Shown here piece after piece: positions 34,491 to 48,293 of a stretch of DNA of 64,000 nucleotides (its first letter is position 1; each line of letters begins with the position of its first letter). The stretch covers positions 807,501-871,500 of the forward strand of contig NZ_FSQT01000002.1 in the NCBI RefSeq assembly GCF_900143515.1, read 5' to 3'. Source of the DNA: Micromonospora cremea (GTDB taxonomy: Bacteria; Actinomycetota; Actinomycetes; Mycobacteriales; Micromonosporaceae). The notes below the pieces were generated by a model. The model was given only the letters and a program-made list of their open reading frames with translations. It was not told the origin of the DNA and did no database searches. The position numbers and the translations under genes are program-made.

Positions 34491-35036
34491 TCAGGCGGCG
34501 GCTTCGGGCTCTCGCAGGTCGAGCCAGTCGGCCCAGCGCGGGTCGGGTGCCCGGTGCCCGAGCACCCGCCAGGCGGTGCCCTTCGGCGCGGCCGGCAGGG
34601 CGTGCAGCCGCCAGCCCAGCTCGGCCGGGGTCTTGTCGCCCTTGGTGTGGTTGCATCGCGCGCACGCGGCGACCACGTTCTCCCAGGCGTGCCGGCCGCC
34701 CCGGCTCCGCGGGAAGACGTGGTCGATGGTCTCCGCCGGGCCTCGGCAGTAGGCGCACCGCCACCCGTCCCGGGCGAAGATCGCCCGGCGGGACAGCCCG
34801 ACGTGGGTGCGGTAGGGAACCCGGACGAAGCGGGTCAACCGGACGACCGACGGCACCGGGAGCGCGTCCCGCGCGCTGTGCAGGATGCCGTCACCGTCGG
34901 CGACGCAGACCGCCTTGGCGGAGAGGACGAGGATCGCGGCTCGACGCACCGACACGACGCACAGCGGCTCGTAGGTGGCGTTGAGGACCAACGCGCCGGA
35001 GCCCACCGTGGGTCGTATGTCAGGCATCGCGCTCAC
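34491..35036 (-). CDS. HNH endonuclease family protein
   Basis: The 181-residue protein opens with LVLNATYEPLCVVSVRRAAILVLSAKA and has a classical HNH zinc-finger nuclease core: FARDGWRCAYC, DHVFPRSRGGRHAWENVVAAC and RCNHTKGDKTP. The CxxC pair, catalytic His (DHV) and Asn are all present, so it is predicted to be active. This type is conserved as a single-copy chromosomal gene in actinobacteria (Rv2469c position in the recalled order), which argues against it being a mobile homing nuclease. Cellular role unknown. Confidence 0.9.
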   Translation of the reverse strand: MSAMPDIRPTVGSGALVLNATYEPLCVVSVRRAAILVLSAKAVCVADGDGILHSARDALPVPSVVRLTRFVRVPYRTHVGLSRRAIFARDGWRCAYCRGPAETIDHVFPRSRGGRHAWENVVAACARCNHTKGDKTPAELGWRLHALPAAPKGTAWRVLGHRAPDPRWADWLDLREPEAAA

Positions 35037-35444
35037 CCTCCCGGTTCAGCGGCTGCTGGGCGCCGCCGCCGACCAGGGTGGGGCACGACGGCCCACACGG
35101 TCGACGCCGGTCCGATCACCGACGTCCGTTGCGCCAATAGTCCCTGATCGGACCCCGGATTGCACGTACTAATCTCTCTTCTGGTAAGCGGATCACCCGC
35201 ACCGGGACGGATCACCGCTGTGGCCTGGGCGAACTCTGCTGTTACCGGACAGTGGTGAACAGCCCTTGCCGGCCTCAGCTGTGCCGGATCCGCGCCCGAT
35301 GATCTTCAGCCTCGCCCCCTGGCTCGCGCCGTTCAACCGATCCGGCAGCCCGTGGTCCGGTCCAGTGGAGATCGGCGAAGAATCTTGCGCCGAGGCCCCT
35401 CTAAGCTCCGCTGCTCGGCGTGTAAGCAGAGCAGGAGGTGGCGT
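35037..35444. other. Long divergent intergenic region (HNH / SigE-type sigma)
   Basis: About 400 bases without a gene. A 9-bp inverted repeat (GTCCGATCA at 35110-35118 and TGATCGGAC at 35145-35153) lies on the HNH side. No ECF-type promoter could be named for the sigma gene, which would be the obvious autoregulated target. Confidence 0.5.
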
Positions 35445-35957
35445 GTGGATGCCGACCGGCAGTCGTTCGAGGCGTACGTGCAGGCCCGTGGTCCGGGTCT
35501 GTCTCGGCACGCCTACCTGCTCACCGGCGATCACCACCTCGCCGAGGATCTGGCCCAGCAGGCTCTGCTGCGGGTCGCCGGCCGGTGGAAGCGGGTGGTG
35601 GCCAACGGCGATCCGGACCCGTACGTGCGTCGAGTCCTCTACCACCAGCACGTCTCCTGGTGGCGGTGGCGGTACCGCCGGGTCAGGGAGACTCCGCTCG
35701 ACACCATCGATCGGCCGGTGCCGGACGAGGCGGACGCGGTCGCCGTATCGCTCGCGGTCCGGGCGGCGCTGGCCCGGCTCGCACCCCGGCAGCGCGCGGC
35801 GATCGTGCTGCGGTATTTCGGCGATCTCAGCGAGGCACAGATCGCCGAGACGCTCGGCTGCCAGGTGGGGACGGTGAAGAGCCAGCTGCGGGACGGGCTG
35901 GCCCGACTGCGGGTGCTCGCCCCGGAGTTGGCGGGGCGGTTGGAGGTGCAGTCGTGA
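35445..35957 (+). CDS. SigE-family (ECF-type) RNA polymerase sigma factor
   Basis: The 170-residue protein has sigma region 2 (FEAYVQARGPGLSRHAYLLTGDHHLAEDLAQQALLRVAGRW) and region 4 with its helix-turn-helix (LAPRQRAAIVLRYFGDLSEAQIAETLGCQVGTVKSQLRDGLARL). This is the layout of the actinobacterial SigE family (SigE-like ECF41/SCO-type group). The GTG at 35445 is chosen because GGAGG lies 6 bases upstream. Its stop overlaps the next gene by 4 bases (GTGA), so it is translationally coupled to a membrane protein that probably acts as its anti-sigma factor or sensor. Confidence 0.9.
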   Translation: MDADRQSFEAYVQARGPGLSRHAYLLTGDHHLAEDLAQQALLRVAGRWKRVVANGDPDPYVRRVLYHQHVSWWRWRYRRVRETPLDTIDRPVPDEADAVAVSLAVRAALARLAPRQRAAIVLRYFGDLSEAQIAETLGCQVGTVKSQLRDGLARLRVLAPELAGRLEVQS

Positions 35958-37375
35958 GCGATCAGGTGCTGACGGAGACGCTGCGTCGGATGGCCGACGA
36001 GTCGCGCCCTGCACGGATCTCGCCGGATATCTGGCGACGAGGGCGACGCCGACGCCGACGCCAGGTCGGGGCGGTGCTGGGGACGCTCGTGGCGGTGTTG
36101 GTCAGCGTGCCACTGCTGCTGCCCGCGCTGCCGGACGCCGGTCCCGTGCCGACCAGCCCGGACCGGCCGGTGGTGCCGTCGCGGGCCTACCCACCGCTGA
36201 CCGGAGAGGCAACCATCAACGAGGACCCACCGGGGCCGGCGGTCCTGCTGGTGACCGGCGACCGAGAGCTTCGCGGCAGCGACATCTGGGGCTGGGAGGG
36301 GCGCAGCCTGGTAGTGGCGGCCGACGGCAGCTACCGCCTGGCCCGCACGGTCGGGGAGACCACTGCGGGAACCGGCGGTCTGCTGCTCTCGCCCGACGGT
36401 CGCCAGCTGGCCGCTCAACCCGGGCTGGAGGGCAGCGACTGGCCCGACGACCCGCTCGGCACAACCATGATCGTCGACCTGGCCAGCGGTCAGATGCGGC
36501 ACTATGCCGGTGGCCTGCCGGTCGCCTGGGCCCCGGATGGCCGGTCGCTGCTGGTCATGTCACACACCCTCGACGGGCAGCTGGGGCGGTTGAGCCTGCT
36601 CGACCCGGCTACCGGGGCGCTGCACCAGCTCCCCCGAATCACCGGGGCGTTCCACACCGGCAACGTCGCCGCCTTCGCCCCGGACGGCTCCCGCCTCGCC
36701 GTGGCGACGACTGACGCGCTGTACATTGTCGACCTGGCCGCCAGCACGACACGCACCCTTGGTGCCCTCACCCCACGCGACCGCCTCGCCGGGCCCGGTG
36801 CCTGGACGCCCGACGGCAACCGGCTTGCCACCTGGGCAATTGGCGACTGCGAGGACGGCGGCAGCTGCGACGAGAAACGCCTGGCCGGGCGGCAGATCCG
36901 GATCGAGTACCGGGACGCGGCCACCGGCGCCCCGGCGAGCGGGCCAGCACTGCCCCCCGCACGAGGCCTGGCCGCCAGGCTGCTCGGCTGGCAGCGCGAC
37001 GGTGACGCCGTCGTCGCCGAGTACCAGCCGGAAGAGGGAACGATCAAGCGGCCGGACGACCCCCTCTGGTCCGAAACCGGCTGGTGGCAGGTCGGCGCGG
37101 TCGAGCTGCGGGAGTTCCGCCCGGACGGGTCCCGCCCCACGTTGGTCGAGCTGCCTTCCAGCGCCCTCTTCGTCGACGTACCCGCCAACCTGCTGGACAA
37201 CTTCGGCGGACCGTCGCCGTCGTGGCCCGAGGGGGCCATCCGTCGGCTGCTCGCCATATGGTGGCCCGTCGGGCAGTTCCTGGTGGCGCTGGTCGGACTG
37301 GTGCTGCCCCTGGTGGGCTGGCGGCTGGTCGCCCGACGACGGATGGCACCCGGTTCGACGGCTGCTCGTACTTGA
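35954..37375 (+). CDS. Membrane propeller protein, probable sigma-linked sensor
   Basis: The 473-residue protein has a short cytosolic N-terminus (ETLRRMADESRPARISPDIWRRGRRRRRR) and a transmembrane helix (about residues 35-57). Next comes a large extracellular TolB/WD40-like beta propeller with repeated blade motifs (LSPDGRQLAA, WAPDGRSLLV, FAPDGSRLAV, WTPDGNRLAT), and then a C-terminal transmembrane helix. The cytosolic segment is too short for a classical zinc anti-sigma domain, so the anti-sigma role is inferred only from the GTGA overlap with the sigma gene. The next gene begins 25 bp later, so the operon may extend further. Confidence 0.75.
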   Translation: MSDQVLTETLRRMADESRPARISPDIWRRGRRRRRRQVGAVLGTLVAVLVSVPLLLPALPDAGPVPTSPDRPVVPSRAYPPLTGEATINEDPPGPAVLLVTGDRELRGSDIWGWEGRSLVVAADGSYRLARTVGETTAGTGGLLLSPDGRQLAAQPGLEGSDWPDDPLGTTMIVDLASGQMRHYAGGLPVAWAPDGRSLLVMSHTLDGQLGRLSLLDPATGALHQLPRITGAFHTGNVAAFAPDGSRLAVATTDALYIVDLAASTTRTLGALTPRDRLAGPGAWTPDGNRLATWAIGDCEDGGSCDEKRLAGRQIRIEYRDAATGAPASGPALPPARGLAARLLGWQRDGDAVVAEYQPEEGTIKRPDDPLWSETGWWQVGAVELREFRPDGSRPTLVELPSSALFVDVPANLLDNFGGPSPSWPEGAIRRLLAIWWPVGQFLVALVGLVLPLVGWRLVARRRMAPGSTAART

Positions 37376-37399
37376 TCGGTCCGGATAGGATCGCCGGTC

Positions 37400-38479
37400 G
37401 TGACCCCGAACTCGCGCCGGCTGTCCGCCCTACTGAAGCCGCTTCGGAGCTGGGCGCCGGCGCTGGTCCTGTTGGGGGCGGTGGTCGCGGCCACGGGGGT
37501 CGTGGCCGTCGGACTGCGCGGTTCCCCCACCGCACCGTCCCGGGCTGTGCTGGTCTCCAGCGGTGCGTGGGCACCGTTCGTGGGTCCCGATCTGCCCGAC
37601 GGCGGGCCGGTCACGGAGTTGGTCGTCGAACTGCTCAGCCGCTCCGGATACTCCCCCGAGGTCAGGTACACATCGTGGTCCCTGGCCGAGGAGAAGGTCT
37701 CCTCCGGTGCCTCCATCGGGGCGTTTCCGCTGGTGGGCAGCGAGTCACGGCGTACCAAATTCCTCCTCTCCGACCCGCTCATCGACTTCGAGTACGTGCT
37801 GTTCTACAACCGCCGCCGCGGCGAGCCGAAGATCTCGTCCGCCGGCGACCTCGGTGCGTTACGGGTGGGCGGCATCGCCGGGTACGACTACTGGGACGAG
37901 CTGGAGTCCGCGGTTCCCGAATTCGTGGAGTTCGGATCGGCCCTGGAGGGCTTCCGGGCGCTCGCCGACGGCCGGATCGACCTGCTCGCCGAGGGGCTGC
38001 TCTCCGGGCAGGCGGTGCTCGCCGACCCGTCCTTCGCCGGTGACGCCGCGGACTTCGGTCACCTCCAGGGCGACAACCGGCTGGTGCATTCGGTGCAGGG
38101 CCTGCACTTCATGATGGCGGACACCGACGAGGGCGCCTCGGTGATGGCGAAGCTCAACGCGATGCTCAGGACGATGCGCCAGAGCCAGGAGTACGAGGAC
38201 ATCGTCGCCGAACTCGAACCGTCCGCGTCCCACGAGGTGACCCTGACTCCGGTCGCCGCGTCGGGTCTGGTGGAACTCCTCGACCAGGACGGCAAGCCGG
38301 TTCTGCTTGCCCCGAGGGGCACCAGGGCGCGAGTGCTGGCCTGGCCCGAGGCGTTCGTCGGCACCGCAGGCCCGCCGCCGGCACAGGTCCTCGTCAAGGT
38401 GAAGGTCACCAACGGTCCCGCGCAGGGCCGGGTGCTTCACGTCGATGCCCGTGCCCTGCTGCTCGATCCGGTGACCTGA
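37400..38479 (+). CDS. Membrane-anchored solute-binding-like protein (SBP family 3)
   Basis: The 359-residue protein has an N-terminal membrane helix without a lipobox (about residues 18-40). A periplasmic-binding-like domain of roughly 200 residues follows: SGAWAPFVGPDLPDGGPVTELVVELLSRSGYSPEVRYTSW, FSLSDPLIDFEYVLF-type block, ADGRIDLLAEG. An extra C-terminal beta-rich domain of about 100 residues completes it. There is no ABC permease or ATPase nearby, so it is not a standard uptake receptor. The start is the GTG at 37400. Its stop shares a base with the next start (TGATG), tying it to the two following membrane proteins. Confidence 0.75.
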   Translation: MTPNSRRLSALLKPLRSWAPALVLLGAVVAATGVVAVGLRGSPTAPSRAVLVSSGAWAPFVGPDLPDGGPVTELVVELLSRSGYSPEVRYTSWSLAEEKVSSGASIGAFPLVGSESRRTKFLLSDPLIDFEYVLFYNRRRGEPKISSAGDLGALRVGGIAGYDYWDELESAVPEFVEFGSALEGFRALADGRIDLLAEGLLSGQAVLADPSFAGDAADFGHLQGDNRLVHSVQGLHFMMADTDEGASVMAKLNAMLRTMRQSQEYEDIVAELEPSASHEVTLTPVAASGLVELLDQDGKPVLLAPRGTRARVLAWPEAFVGTAGPPPAQVLVKVKVTNGPAQGRVLHVDARALLLDPVT

Positions 38480-39906
38480 TGATCCAGCTACGGACCCTGG
38501 CCCCGGTCGCGGTGGACTACTACGCCGTACCGGGTGCGTCGCTGCGCGATCCGCACGGGTACGCGCGGTTCTGGGCCGAACAGCAGCCGGCGGTGGACGA
38601 GTTGCTGGCGGGACTGACCCCGGGCCCGGTGGCGGATCGGCCCCGACGCCCCCCGTCCGTCGTGCTGGAGCACACCCGGGCCACACGGTCGTTCAATCTC
38701 TACCGCACCATCGATGACCACGCCATCGAGCGCACGATGCACGTCCTCACCGGCACGCTGTACCCCGAGCATCTGCCAGCCGCGTTCAGCGGCGTCACCA
38801 CCGCCCCGCATGCCGGGGTCATCGAGATCAGTTTCCGGCTCTACGACCACGGCCTGATGTTGCTCGAGATACTGGCGGACGTTGATCCGCGGCCGACCGA
38901 GGACACCGACGGCCTGGCGAGCCGCCTCGACGAACTCCAGGCCCGAGCGGTGGCGATGGGTGAGCGGGCAGCGCGGGAGATCGTCGCGCGGTACCTGGAC
39001 CCGCTGCTGCGCCTGCTGCGTCAGGCCGACCGGGACAGCCGGATCCTGGCCACGGCGACCCCTGACGGCGACCCGTTGACGGCGGAGTTCGGGGAACCGC
39101 TCTGGGTCACCCGTAGCCTCGTACTCGATCCGGCCGAGCCCGGAGCCGATGCGGTGACGCGGCACTGGATCAAGGACGTGGTGATCGCCGACGACGTCCG
39201 CAGCCCGGCGGACCGGCTGCTCGACGGCGACCTGGAGCATCTGATCCGCTGGCTGAACTACATCTTCCTGGACCGCACCGGGGCAGGCGGCCGGATGCTG
39301 CCCGGCGACCCGTTCCGCGACCAGTGGGACGCCCTGCGCTACGCGCAGGTGTTCTACGGCGCGCTGGACCGGATCGACGCCCGGCTGTCGAAGATTCTCG
39401 CAGATTCGGCGGCGGCCGGTTCCCGCTGGGAACTGGAGCAGCTCAGGGGGAACCTGTTGGGGCTGAGTCAGCGCGCCGAGCTGATCATGATGGAGCGCCA
39501 GGACCTGTCGAAGTACCTCAAGCGCGCGGTACGGACGGAGATGGACGCCATCCTCGAGTTCTGGGACTACGAGAGCCTCCTGGCGCAGCCGGTCCGGTTC
39601 AAGATCGAGATCTGTGACCGGCGCCTGGCCGAACTCGCCGCACGGCGCACCGCCCGTTCGGCGATGTTCACCGACCTCATCCTGCTGGGTATCGGTGTGA
39701 CGTCGATCCTGGGAACGGCGCTCGCGGTCACCGAGTTCGGGCGCTCGTTGGCCAACGACCCGGGCATGGCGGTCTCCGACCTGGGACGGTCGTCCATCAT
39801 GGGATGGATCGCCGGGCAGCCGGCGGACGCCGTCCTGATCACGTCCGGCATAGTGTCGCTGCTGTTGGTGATCATGTATTTGTTCTTCCGTCGCGACCGG
39901 ACCTGA
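38479..39906 (+). CDS. Unknown protein with CorA-like shape (soluble domain plus two C-terminal helices)
   Basis: The 475-residue protein is hydrophilic and helical over about 395 residues, including a long helix-rich stretch (about 290-395) with YLKRAVRTEMDAILEFWDYESLL. Two hydrophobic helices come near the C-terminus: MFTDLILLGIGVTSILGTALAV and AVLITSGIVSLLLVIMYLFF. The layout resembles CorA-type channels, but I do not see a GMN motif between the helices (the loop reads GMAVSDLGRSS and WIAGQP). No family is recognised. It is flanked by TGATG overlaps on both sides and so is co-translated with the solute-binding-like and MFS proteins. Confidence 0.6.
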   Translation: MIQLRTLAPVAVDYYAVPGASLRDPHGYARFWAEQQPAVDELLAGLTPGPVADRPRRPPSVVLEHTRATRSFNLYRTIDDHAIERTMHVLTGTLYPEHLPAAFSGVTTAPHAGVIEISFRLYDHGLMLLEILADVDPRPTEDTDGLASRLDELQARAVAMGERAAREIVARYLDPLLRLLRQADRDSRILATATPDGDPLTAEFGEPLWVTRSLVLDPAEPGADAVTRHWIKDVVIADDVRSPADRLLDGDLEHLIRWLNYIFLDRTGAGGRMLPGDPFRDQWDALRYAQVFYGALDRIDARLSKILADSAAAGSRWELEQLRGNLLGLSQRAELIMMERQDLSKYLKRAVRTEMDAILEFWDYESLLAQPVRFKIEICDRRLAELAARRTARSAMFTDLILLGIGVTSILGTALAVTEFGRSLANDPGMAVSDLGRSSIMGWIAGQPADAVLITSGIVSLLLVIMYLFFRRDRT

Positions 39907-41093
39907 TGCGAACAGCCCTGCGCAGTCGCCCGATCCGGACGCTGGCGATCACCCAGTTCCTGCTCGAAGTGCAGTTCTGGTTTCCCATCTGGCTGATCTA
40001 CCTGCTCGACCTGGGCTTCCCTCTGACGACGGCGGTACTCGCCGACGGAGCGTTCCGGATCGTCTCGGTGATCTGCGAGTTCCCGGTGGGGCTGGTCGCC
40101 GACCGGATCGGGCGGCGGGCCACCTATCTGACGCTGGCCGGTGCGACGGTGCTGACCTTCACCGTCATTACGCAGATCCGGTCCGTGCAGGTGCTGTTCG
40201 GAGCGTGGGTGCTCTGGGGTGTGCTGTGGGCACTGTCGTCCGGCGCGGCCAGCACCTACCTGTACGAACTGTGCGCCCAGGACCCTCTCGACATCGACCC
40301 GGCCAGGGCCATCGGGCTGGTACGGGCGGTCGGCAACGTGTCCGTACTCGTCTCGCTGCTGGCCGCCGGCTACCTGTACGACGTGGACCACCGGCTCCCG
40401 TTCGCCGTCACCGCCGTGCTGGCCGCGGTCGCGTTCCTGCTCGCGTACACGCTGCCGGAGATCGCCGGCTCACGGGTGGTCGCCACGCTCTCCTCGGTGC
40501 TGGCGGACATCCGGGGCGCGGCAGCCGACCCCCGGGTACGCCGGGCCGTGCGGCTGGGGGCGCTGCTGCTGCTGTTCGGCTGGAGCGCCCGCATCCTGTT
40601 CCAGCCACTTGCGCTCCATCTGGGCCTGACCGCGCAGGTCACCGGATGGATGTACGGGGTGTTCGCGGCCGCCTCGGCGCTCGGTGGGCTGGTCGCCGGA
40701 TACGTCCGCCCGCGGCACCGCCCGGGTGCGCTGAGCGCCGCGTTCCTCCTCATCCTCGCCGCGCTGGTGGCGATCAACCAGATGGACCGGCTCGGCCCGT
40801 TCCTCTTCCTGCCGATGATGGGATTCGGATACACCCTCGGCCTGACGGTGCTGGAGGTCTTCACCAACGAGGTCACCCCGCGAGCGGTGCGCGCCACGAT
40901 ATTCGGGGTGATCGCCTGTGTCGGCGGTGTCGGCATCGCCGTGGCCCGCCCCGGTCTCGGGATACTGGCGGAGCGGCACTCCACGTCTTTCGCGTTCGGG
41001 ATCTGGGCCGGCACAGGCGTGGTGCTGATCAGCCTGGCGGTGCCTGGAATCCGCCGGATCCGGATGGCCGCCGGCCCTGCACCCGACCGCTGA
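39906..41093 (+). CDS. MFS transporter
   Basis: The 395-residue protein has about 12 hydrophobic segments and the MFS loop motif between helices 2 and 3 (GLVADRIGRRATYLTLAG). It resembles drug/metabolite efflux permeases of the actinobacterial MFS group, but the substrate is unknown. Its ATG shares one base with the stop of the preceding gene (TGATG). It closes a unit with the solute-binding-like protein and the CorA-shaped protein, possibly also with the sigma and propeller genes upstream. The most C-terminal residues are Arg-rich and cytosolic. Confidence 0.88.
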   Translation: MRTALRSRPIRTLAITQFLLEVQFWFPIWLIYLLDLGFPLTTAVLADGAFRIVSVICEFPVGLVADRIGRRATYLTLAGATVLTFTVITQIRSVQVLFGAWVLWGVLWALSSGAASTYLYELCAQDPLDIDPARAIGLVRAVGNVSVLVSLLAAGYLYDVDHRLPFAVTAVLAAVAFLLAYTLPEIAGSRVVATLSSVLADIRGAAADPRVRRAVRLGALLLLFGWSARILFQPLALHLGLTAQVTGWMYGVFAAASALGGLVAGYVRPRHRPGALSAAFLLILAALVAINQMDRLGPFLFLPMMGFGYTLGLTVLEVFTNEVTPRAVRATIFGVIACVGGVGIAVARPGLGILAERHSTSFAFGIWAGTGVVLISLAVPGIRRIRMAAGPAPDR

Positions 41094-41160
41094 GCGGCGG
41101 CAGGTCACCGGCCGGTGGGTCGGCGGCGGGCGCTCGGCTTCCTTACGGTACGAAGACAGG

Positions 41161-42201
41161 GTGAGTGCCGCCAGCGTGACGCCCCTTGCCCTGTCCACCG
41201 CCACGTCGGTGAACTGCCAGGGCAGTTCCTCCTGCGAGTTCCTGTACCGAATGACCCACTCGGCCTGGTTCGCCGAGGGCAGCTACTGGATCCTGCTCAA
41301 GCCGCTGCGAGTACTGCTGATCGTGGCGCTGGCGATGTTCGCCCGATGGGCGCTGCACCGGACGATCGACCGGTTGGTCCGGACCACCACCGACGGTGCG
41401 GTGCCGACGATGCTGCGGCCACTGCGCGAACGGGTGCCCACCGCCGCGGTCGACCCGACCGAGTTCGTGCCGGAGCGGCGTCGGCAGCGGGCCGAGGCGA
41501 TCGGCTCGGTGCTACGCAGCCTGACCACCGCGTTCGTCTTCGGCATCGCGCTGCTGATGATCCTGCGTGAGTTCAGCTTCGACCTGGCTCCGCTGCTGGC
41601 CAGCGCCGGGATCGCCGGTGTCGCGCTGGGCTTCGGCGCCCAGAGCCTGGTCAAGGATCTGATCGCGGGGTTGTTCATGCTGATCGAGGACCAGTACGGC
41701 GTGGGTGACACCGTCGACCTGGGCGAGGCGACCGGTGTGGTCGAGTCGGTCGGGCTGCGGGTCACCACCGTGCGCGACGGTCGCGGTGTGCTCTGGTACA
41801 TCCGCAACGGCGAGATCATCCGGGTGGGCAACAAGAGCCAGGGATGGGCCCTAGTGGTGGTGGACCTCCCGATCGGCTTCAGCGGCACCGAGGAGGCGAC
41901 CGCCGTGCTGCGGACCGCGGCCGCCTCGGTGGCGGTGGACCCGGAACTGTCGCCGGAGATCGTGGAGGCGCCGGAGGTGCTCGGCGTCGAACAGATGACG
42001 GTGGACGGCGCGGTGATCCGGACGGTGGTGAAGACGACCGCCGACGGGCAGTTCGCGGTGGGACGGGAGCTGCGCCGGCGGCTGGCGGAGGCGCTGGAGA
42101 ACTCGGGGATCACCGCACAGATCGCCTCGTCGCGCATCTATCCCGGTCTACTGAACCGGCCGATGGCCGACGGCGAGACTGGTCAGGGCGGCGCGACCTG
42201 A
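41161..42201 (+). CDS. Mechanosensitive ion channel (MscS family)
   Basis: MscS-type channels release solutes on hypo-osmotic shock. The 346-residue protein has about three membrane helices and the pore-lining TM3 with Gly/Ala packing (LLASAGIAGVALGFGAQSLV) followed by KDLIAGLFMLIEDQYGVGDTVDLG. The beta domain and C-terminal alpha/beta domain follow. The N-terminus contains an unusual short extracellular segment with two Cys (CQGSSSCEF). The start is the GTG at 41161 with a weak ribosome site. It is separated by 67 bp from the MFS gene and may or may not be co-transcribed. Confidence 0.92.
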   Translation: MSAASVTPLALSTATSVNCQGSSSCEFLYRMTHSAWFAEGSYWILLKPLRVLLIVALAMFARWALHRTIDRLVRTTTDGAVPTMLRPLRERVPTAAVDPTEFVPERRRQRAEAIGSVLRSLTTAFVFGIALLMILREFSFDLAPLLASAGIAGVALGFGAQSLVKDLIAGLFMLIEDQYGVGDTVDLGEATGVVESVGLRVTTVRDGRGVLWYIRNGEIIRVGNKSQGWALVVVDLPIGFSGTEEATAVLRTAAASVAVDPELSPEIVEAPEVLGVEQMTVDGAVIRTVVKTTADGQFAVGRELRRRLAEALENSGITAQIASSRIYPGLLNRPMADGETGQGGAT

Positions 42202-46298: not shown

Positions 46299-47975
<1,677 letters not shown>

Positions 47976-48293
47976 GGTGCGGGCTACCTCCGTCGGTTGC
48001 TGTCGCATGATCGGCGGCGCGGCGCGGGCTGCGACCTCCGCCCGCCGCCGCCGGCCGGGAGCCGGCCGCGCGCACGCCATCGTCAATCCTGACAGGTACG
48101 GCCCGCTTCGCCCACATCACCCCGCCCCAGGAGTACGTCGTGCCGCTCACCGAACCACCCTGTCAACAAGATCACGATTCCGATTCAGCCCCCGCGGAGC
48201 GGGTACGGAACTCCGGCACGGGGCAACAGAGGCCGCAGCTACGCTCAGTACGCTCATCGCGGTGGACCCGTCAGTACCCGGAGGTGGCCGATC
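47976..48293. other. Divergent intergenic region (ettA / otsA)
   Basis: About 320 bases without a gene between two divergent units. The minus strand has GTTGACAGGGTGG near 48145-48155, which contains a -35-like TTGACA, but I cannot place a matching -10. No clear operator is visible. Confidence 0.4.

Follow-up and report, generated by a model that had tools for sequence, protein, structure and literature searches.

According to the part of a published account drawn on here, TRAP and TTT transporters consist of an extracytoplasmic binding protein, a transporter with 12 transmembrane (TM) helices and a small membrane subunit with 4 TM helices (PMC5812351). A stretch of 64,000 nucleotides of the Micromonospora cremea genome (contig NZ_FSQT01000002.1, positions 807,501 to 871,500; hereafter the window) contains a trio of adjacent genes that is similar in composition as far as that portion of the account goes: a binding protein (gene 1), a membrane subunit (gene 2) and a secondary transporter of the 12-helix type (gene 3). 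The trio differs from TRAP and TTT systems in that a family-3 fold stands in for DctP or TctC, a major facilitator superfamily (MFS) protein for DctM or TctA, and a CorA-shaped protein with two TM helices and a large soluble domain for the 4-TM subunit; a Pfam scan of the three trio proteins at E values up to 1 found none of the TRAP or TTT families (DctP/DctM, TctC/TctA). The trio may form an undescribed solute-uptake or sensing machine in scattered actinobacteria.

Two other groups of described systems resemble single components of the trio. Gene 2 is laid out like the CorA/MRS2/ZntB (2-TM-GxN) proteins, CmaX included, with an alpha/beta N-terminal part, long helices, a stalk helix running into TM1, an outer loop, TM2 and a basic C-terminal end, but unlike them it lacks the GMN motif (in 68 of 68 family members) and matches CorA with a profile probability of only 4%. 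Gene 1 has the amino-acid-binding fold of the GlnPQ- and GlnH-type ATP-binding cassette (ABC) amino-acid uptake systems; unlike these, the trio includes no ABC permease or ATPase, and gene 1 carries an extra C-terminal domain and a helix anchor. A literature search in which titles and the beginnings of abstracts were screened, with subscription journals and preprints mostly outside its reach, found no such three-part system; as far as our searches reach, the trio is uncharacterised, the gene 2 family is unnamed and the combination is new to us. So far as we know, short of an exhaustive search, no MFS transporter has been described that relies on its own binding protein of this type, and no CorA-shaped protein that is a transporter subunit.

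Co-occurrence and co-evolution of the three genes

An original prediction, made from the window sequence alone, proposed that the three genes are joined by TGATG start/stop overlaps; this is confirmed at both junctions (gene 1/gene 2 and gene 2/gene 3), with exact coordinates (Table 1). Homologues were sought with three profiles: A1 for gene 2, built from 68 proteins (that of the window and 67 of 72 homologues, P0028, P0047, P0052, P0055 and P0072 being dropped as partial or less covered); A2 for gene 1, built from 60 proteins (that of the window and 59 of 71 homologues); and A4 for gene 3, built from the 19 MFS proteins of trio loci. Each profile detected its gene in 18 of 350 Micromonosporaceae genomes (A2 at E ≤1e-20, A4 at E ≤1e-60), and the 18 genomes are identical for the three genes, each of which is present in a single copy. 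No orphan copy of any trio gene was found in the 350 genomes at E limits of 1e-3 (A1), 1e-20 (A2) and 1e-60 (A4), with four to five candidates scored per genome; two of the 18 MFS matches include one TAG. The original prediction would have been refuted had the genes rarely been neighbours; in these 350 genomes they were not found apart.

Gene 2 was detected in two of 394 genomes of a class-wide sample, namely the window's own and one other (G599), and in three of 47 genomes of the family to which G599 belongs. Because these counts, like that in the 350-genome sample, are low, the module is patchy in its distribution. A search with the single gene 2 sequence found no match in 36 same-genus genomes besides the window's own in a sample of relatives; larger sampling yielded six other same-genus genomes with gene 2. 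A weak gene 2 match in another genome, G056 (E 4e-5), was rejected, as profile A1 finds nothing there. Plasmid and phage records searched with the gene 2 protein gave no match.

The order binding protein, CorA-shaped protein, MFS transporter, all on one strand, holds in 21 of 21 genomes (the window's, 18 others, G774 and G770), and order and strand are kept in three genomes at only 32-42% identity. At the first junction, 20 of 21 loci (all but L032) have an in-frame start that overlaps the stop of gene 1. At the second junction, such an overlap with the stop of gene 2 is present in 11 of 21; the other ten loci have their earliest in-frame start 18-52 bases downstream of the first base of the stop codon. 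One further locus, L024, duplicates the genome stretch of L003, and neither these start-site counts nor the comparison of flanking genes include it.

That comparison set all open reading frames (ORFs) within about 8 kb on each side of the trio against each other in 19 loci (L097 and L098 lying outside it), using a simple ORF caller that missed or displaced some genes, including trio genes at several loci. It revealed no fourth constant gene beside the trio, other ORF clusters covering at most seven of the 19 loci. Since the flanks differ and no cluster exceeds seven of 19, the trio is a unit.

Pairwise distances of the three proteins across 18 genomes, G599 excluded, correlate with one another at r 0.86-0.89 and with those of rpoB, represented by one stretch of 590 residues, at 0.45-0.62; with rpoB held constant, the correlations within the trio are 0.80-0.86. 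In phylogenetic trees, pairs of trio proteins have 6-9 of 16 splits in common, versus 4-5 with rpoB, and two to three supported splits conflict within the trio. We prefer the distance correlation without G599 to the trees because the topologies are weak evidence and G599 is a long branch. When the window is compared with three relatives, the trio genes have ratios of nonsynonymous to synonymous substitution rates (dN/dS) of 0.19-0.46; with the identical sets of 18 genomes, this marks the trio as more than a chance arrangement. Because co-occurrence is obligatory, the genes overlap and the proteins have co-evolved, it is at the least very likely that the trio genes share a joint function.

Table 1. 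Positions in the window of the trio genes, selected protein features and upstream elements
Feature	Position	Strand	Description
Gene 1	37400..38479	+	GTG start at 37400, TGA stop at 38477-38479; family-3 solute-binding protein with a membrane tether, 359 aa
Membrane anchor of gene 1, residues 17-42	37448..37525	+	sole hydrophobic stretch (Kyte-Doolittle, window 19); helix 13-39 in the predicted model
R117 of gene 1	37748..37750	+	conserved in 60/60; falls on R of TDER/TDAR in the 6h30 alignment
E198 of gene 1	37991..37993	+	conserved in 60/60; falls on the second-lobe Asp in the 6h30 alignment, which is of low confidence there and was read by eye
Additional beta-rich domain at the C-terminal end of gene 1, residues ~275-359	38222..38476	+	strands in the predicted model
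Gene 2	38479..39906	+	ATG start at 38479, TGA stop at 39904-39906; CorA-shaped two-helix membrane protein, 475 aa, no known family
TM1 of gene 2, residues 394-420	39658..39738	+	most conserved segment of the protein
F420-G421-R422 of gene 2	39736..39744	+	end of TM1; G and R in 68/68, F in 67/68 and Y in one; site of the YGMN filter in CorA
TM2 of gene 2, residues 447-472	39817..39894	+	from hydropathy and column counts
Gene 3	39906..41093	+	ATG start at 39906; MFS transporter, 395 aa
SigE-type sigma factor and propeller-like gene	35352..37375	+	sigma factor assigned by TIGR02983; outside the module
TAGGAT, -10-like box	37386..37391	+	candidate promoter for a leaderless transcript of the trio; 8 bases from the GTG start

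Features of the three proteins

The description of gene 1 as a tethered family-3 binding-type protein with an extra C-terminal domain stands: it has one hydrophobic stretch, a family-3 fold and a beta-rich extension. A two-lobed periplasmic-binding fold of the amino-acid type is indicated both by Foldseek, which matches the predicted model (predicted local distance difference test, pLDDT, 84.8) to a glutamine-binding protein at E 1.7e-13 and probability 1.00, and by comparison of the gene 1 profile with the PDB, which finds the GlnPQ binding domains (6h30 at E 1.4e-10). The Pfam family SBP_bac_3 falls under its cut-off on the window protein (17.8 bits versus 26.4, E 0.003) and appears at E ≤1 in 43 of 60 members of the gene 1 family, the best at 8.8e-7. 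R117 occupies the position that we take to be that of the ligand-carboxylate arginine of amino-acid-binding proteins, and E198 presumably lies at the approximate position of the ligand-ammonium Asp; Y162, W165 and P110 are likewise invariant (60 of 60). On this evidence, gene 1 very probably still binds a small ligand; this most likely carries a carboxylate, and R117 and E198 point to a ligand of the amino-acid-like class. The C-terminal domain (275-359) matches no Pfam family above cut-off, has W315, K335, G339 and G343 in 60 of 60 members and, to our knowledge, is missing from ordinary uptake binding proteins. Gene 1 could be, as was originally proposed, a sensor or delivery subunit of a non-ABC complex.

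As initially described, gene 2 encodes 475 residues and has two hydrophobic segments near its C-terminal end (394-420 and 447-472). The match to a known family that would have counted against the original prediction did not turn up, no family reaching its curated cut-off. Its family comprises 72 homologous protein clusters; a second search with profile A1 returned the same 72 and nothing wider, about 8,000 candidates being scored per search. Mean column entropy is 0.61 bits at residues 397-419 versus 1.8 at residues 1-279, T398, D399, I401, L402, I405 and T408 of TM1 being present in 68 of 68 members and an acidic residue at position 419 in 59 of 68. The Pfam candidate DUF6172 was rejected: it is found in 36 of 68 members at a best E of 0.0013, and in the window protein it is a stretch of 35 residues under cut-off. 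A search of PDB sequences with the gene 2 profile gave nothing at E up to 10.

The epithet CorA-like, taken from the original prediction, fits the layout of gene 2 and perhaps its fold to a slight degree; it does not fit the CorA signature and hardly fits the sequence profile. Across all 68 members, the final 95 residues contain no G[MVIQLA]N motif but have FGR instead, and a profile alignment sets FG on the YG of CorA with low confidence. The Pfam CorA model PF01544 has no match in the window protein at E up to 1, nor up to 10; the same model picks out three regular CorA genes at other places in this genome. PF01544 is absent among 25 of the 28 Pfam families listed for the 68 members, so that at most one member could match it. 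Compared with the profile of 20 CorA proteins, the full gene 2 profile gives the 4% probability over 14 columns; the membrane ends alone give 35%, and eight control comparisons give at most 1.7%. Five gene 2 relatives (P0001, P0005, P0013, P0021 and P0040) are publicly named CorA-like Mg2+ transporter. This is a probable over-annotation, because the 25 Pfam families do not include CorA, and GMN is missing. The family merits an entry of its own, even without a mechanism, since five of its 72 clusters bear that name, yet the filter is missing in the 68 aligned members.

Gene 3 is an MFS permease, as predicted, matching Pfam MFS_1 above cut-off (82.8 bits versus 33.4). By profile, the exporter NorA is the nearest relative with a solved structure (E 1.3e-7); no specific NCBIfam model is reached above its cut-off, and there is a weak match to EntS. 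PADLOC returned zero matches for all three trio proteins.

Possible functions of the trio

The reading that we prefer, tentatively, is that the trio constitutes one membrane complex for ligand-dependent transport without ATP, that is, binding-protein-dependent transport. The binding protein, anchored by one N-terminal helix, would capture a small amino-acid-like ligand with its outer domain and dock on the MFS permease, which would move the ligand, driven by an ion gradient. The CorA-shaped protein, with its large cytoplasmic domain, long stalk helix and two membrane helices, would be an obligatory partner, in which the conserved TM1 and outer loop might serve as the docking or gating part and the cytoplasmic domain might control the transporter. 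We infer that the three proteins associate physically, and likewise which way they transport and what ligand they take. That the trio would represent a third class of binding-protein-dependent secondary transporter, composed of an amino-acid-type binding protein, an MFS permease and a GMN-less CorA-shaped obligatory gating subunit, is a bolder and more doubtful proposal. If the trio is one machine, MFS secondary transport gains a binding-protein-dependent form, and the CorA shape serves for more than a Mg2+ channel. The trio is directly testable, as it comprises three genes, no other constant partner was seen and its hosts are related to workable actinobacteria.

Sensor-controlled export for accessory self-protection is rather unlikely. 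In this reading, an external compound would be recognised by the binding protein and signalled across the membrane by the CorA-shaped protein, and an exporter-type MFS protein would expel that compound or a related antibiotic. Consistent with export are the proximity of the gene 3 profile to NorA and, weakly, to EntS in NCBIfam; the patchy distribution, as for accessory functions (18/350, 2/394 and 3/47 genomes); and the occurrence of binding folds of the gene 1 type as sensor-kinase domains (3h7m is among the Foldseek matches). A cluster of BTAD-type regulators in the flanks of four of 19 loci (L025, L026, L036 and L038), one of which, a BTAD-type transcriptional activator at L036:4807-7899, lies directly beside the MFS gene, also favours export. 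Distance and strand of these regulators vary, however; none was seen in the other 15 loci, and no other flank gene is constant. The regulator was accordingly rejected as a part of the trio.

By analogy with ionotropic glutamate receptors, which are gated by the same binding fold, the trio might instead be a split ligand-gated channel with a transporter: the family-3 domain would gate a pentameric CorA-shaped channel with FGR as filter in place of GMN, and the MFS protein would handle the ligand or balance charge. The strong conservation of TM1 and its surroundings (T398, D399, T408, G421 and R422 invariant, position 419 mostly acidic) and the CorA-resembling succession of long helices, stalk helix and TM1-loop-TM2 would suit such a channel. 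GMN is required for CorA conduction, however, and its absence from all 68 members, together with the low probability in the comparison with the 20 CorA proteins, makes a channel unlikely. A coincidental operon of three separately tasked proteins that are merely co-transcribed is highly improbable, for although loosely linked functions can join in operons and genes 2 and 3 do not overlap in ten of 21 loci, no orphan was found at the E limits used, gene order is kept down to 32-42% identity and the flanks differ.

Flanking genes, probable promoter and the sigma/propeller pair

The trio lies between pheT and argC in seven of 19 loci (L030-L035 and L037), in some with several genes in between; the gene names were checked in L030. 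This site, between phe-tRNA-ligase and arginine-biosynthesis genes, may be an insertion hot spot. Three of the 19 loci, those of the window, L003 and L028, have common flanks: a class F sortase on one side and, on the other, an MscS gene, a second MFS gene and a small gene whose product is by eye a truncated globin, with no NCBIfam match. The MscS channel gene (41161-42201) was rejected as a part of the trio, since outside the window, L003/L024 and L028 the two are not adjacent. A TctC-type gene lies downstream of the trio in L023.

No ABC transporter was found among eight nearby window genes, to which, rather than the whole window, the scan was applied; the ORF at 46299-48086 encodes the ABC-F translation factor EttA, not an ABC transporter. 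ABC ATPases were rejected as trio parts, being present in the flanks of only six of 19 loci, at varying distance and strand; three of these are the window, where the ATPase is EttA, and L003 and L028, whose counterparts cluster with EttA. No constant ABC permease or ATPase partner gene was seen in the 19 loci.

In Pseudomonas aeruginosa, a cmaX-cfrX-cmpX-sigX locus brings genes for a CorA-type protein, an MscS-type protein and an extracytoplasmic function (ECF) sigma factor close together, according to the part of a published description used here (PMC7641640). The window resembles that locus, so far as the part used describes it, in having CorA-shaped, MscS and sigma genes close together. This parallel was discarded, for the trio has the MscS neighbour in just the window, L003/L024 and L028, and the sigma gene is confined to the window; because neither gene is constant beside the trio, the likeness is probably accidental.

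The original prediction also linked the trio to the sigma/propeller pair directly upstream, from which it is separated by 24 bases (37375 to 37400). The limits set for the trio itself were correct, but this link is not supported: the 21 other trio loci (20 genomes), searched at E up to 1e-3, contain no counterpart of the sigma protein or of the propeller protein, which has two hydrophobic stretches, and a -10-like box stands directly before gene 1. L003 and L028 align with the window on both sides of the pair at 94-96%, and between these sides they have 132 and 80 unmatched bases, respectively, versus about 2.1 kb in the window. Because the pair is extra in the window relative to two loci with both flanks in common, it was probably inserted next to the trio, on its upstream side, in recent times, and it was rejected as a part of the system. 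Read-through from the pair into the trio may occur in the window.

The 28 bases before the start codon (37372-37399) have one difference in L003, so that the immediate upstream sequence of the trio has been kept. TANNNT occurs 6-8 bases before the start in ten of 21 loci and TAGGAA at the same place in five; three loci have neither, and in three the start is uncertain. Several loci (with TACAGT, TAGCAT or TAAGAT) retain the -10 pattern but not the AGGA that could be read as a ribosome-binding site. Thus the trio probably has, on sequence grounds, its own leaderless promoter at TAGGAT. A search of Rfam over 34900-41400 gave nothing at gathering score. Further upstream, on the minus strand at 34491-35036, a small protein matches parts of Cas9d and IscB far below cut-off (NCBIfam E ~1e-11); by eye it is an ordinary HNH endonuclease.

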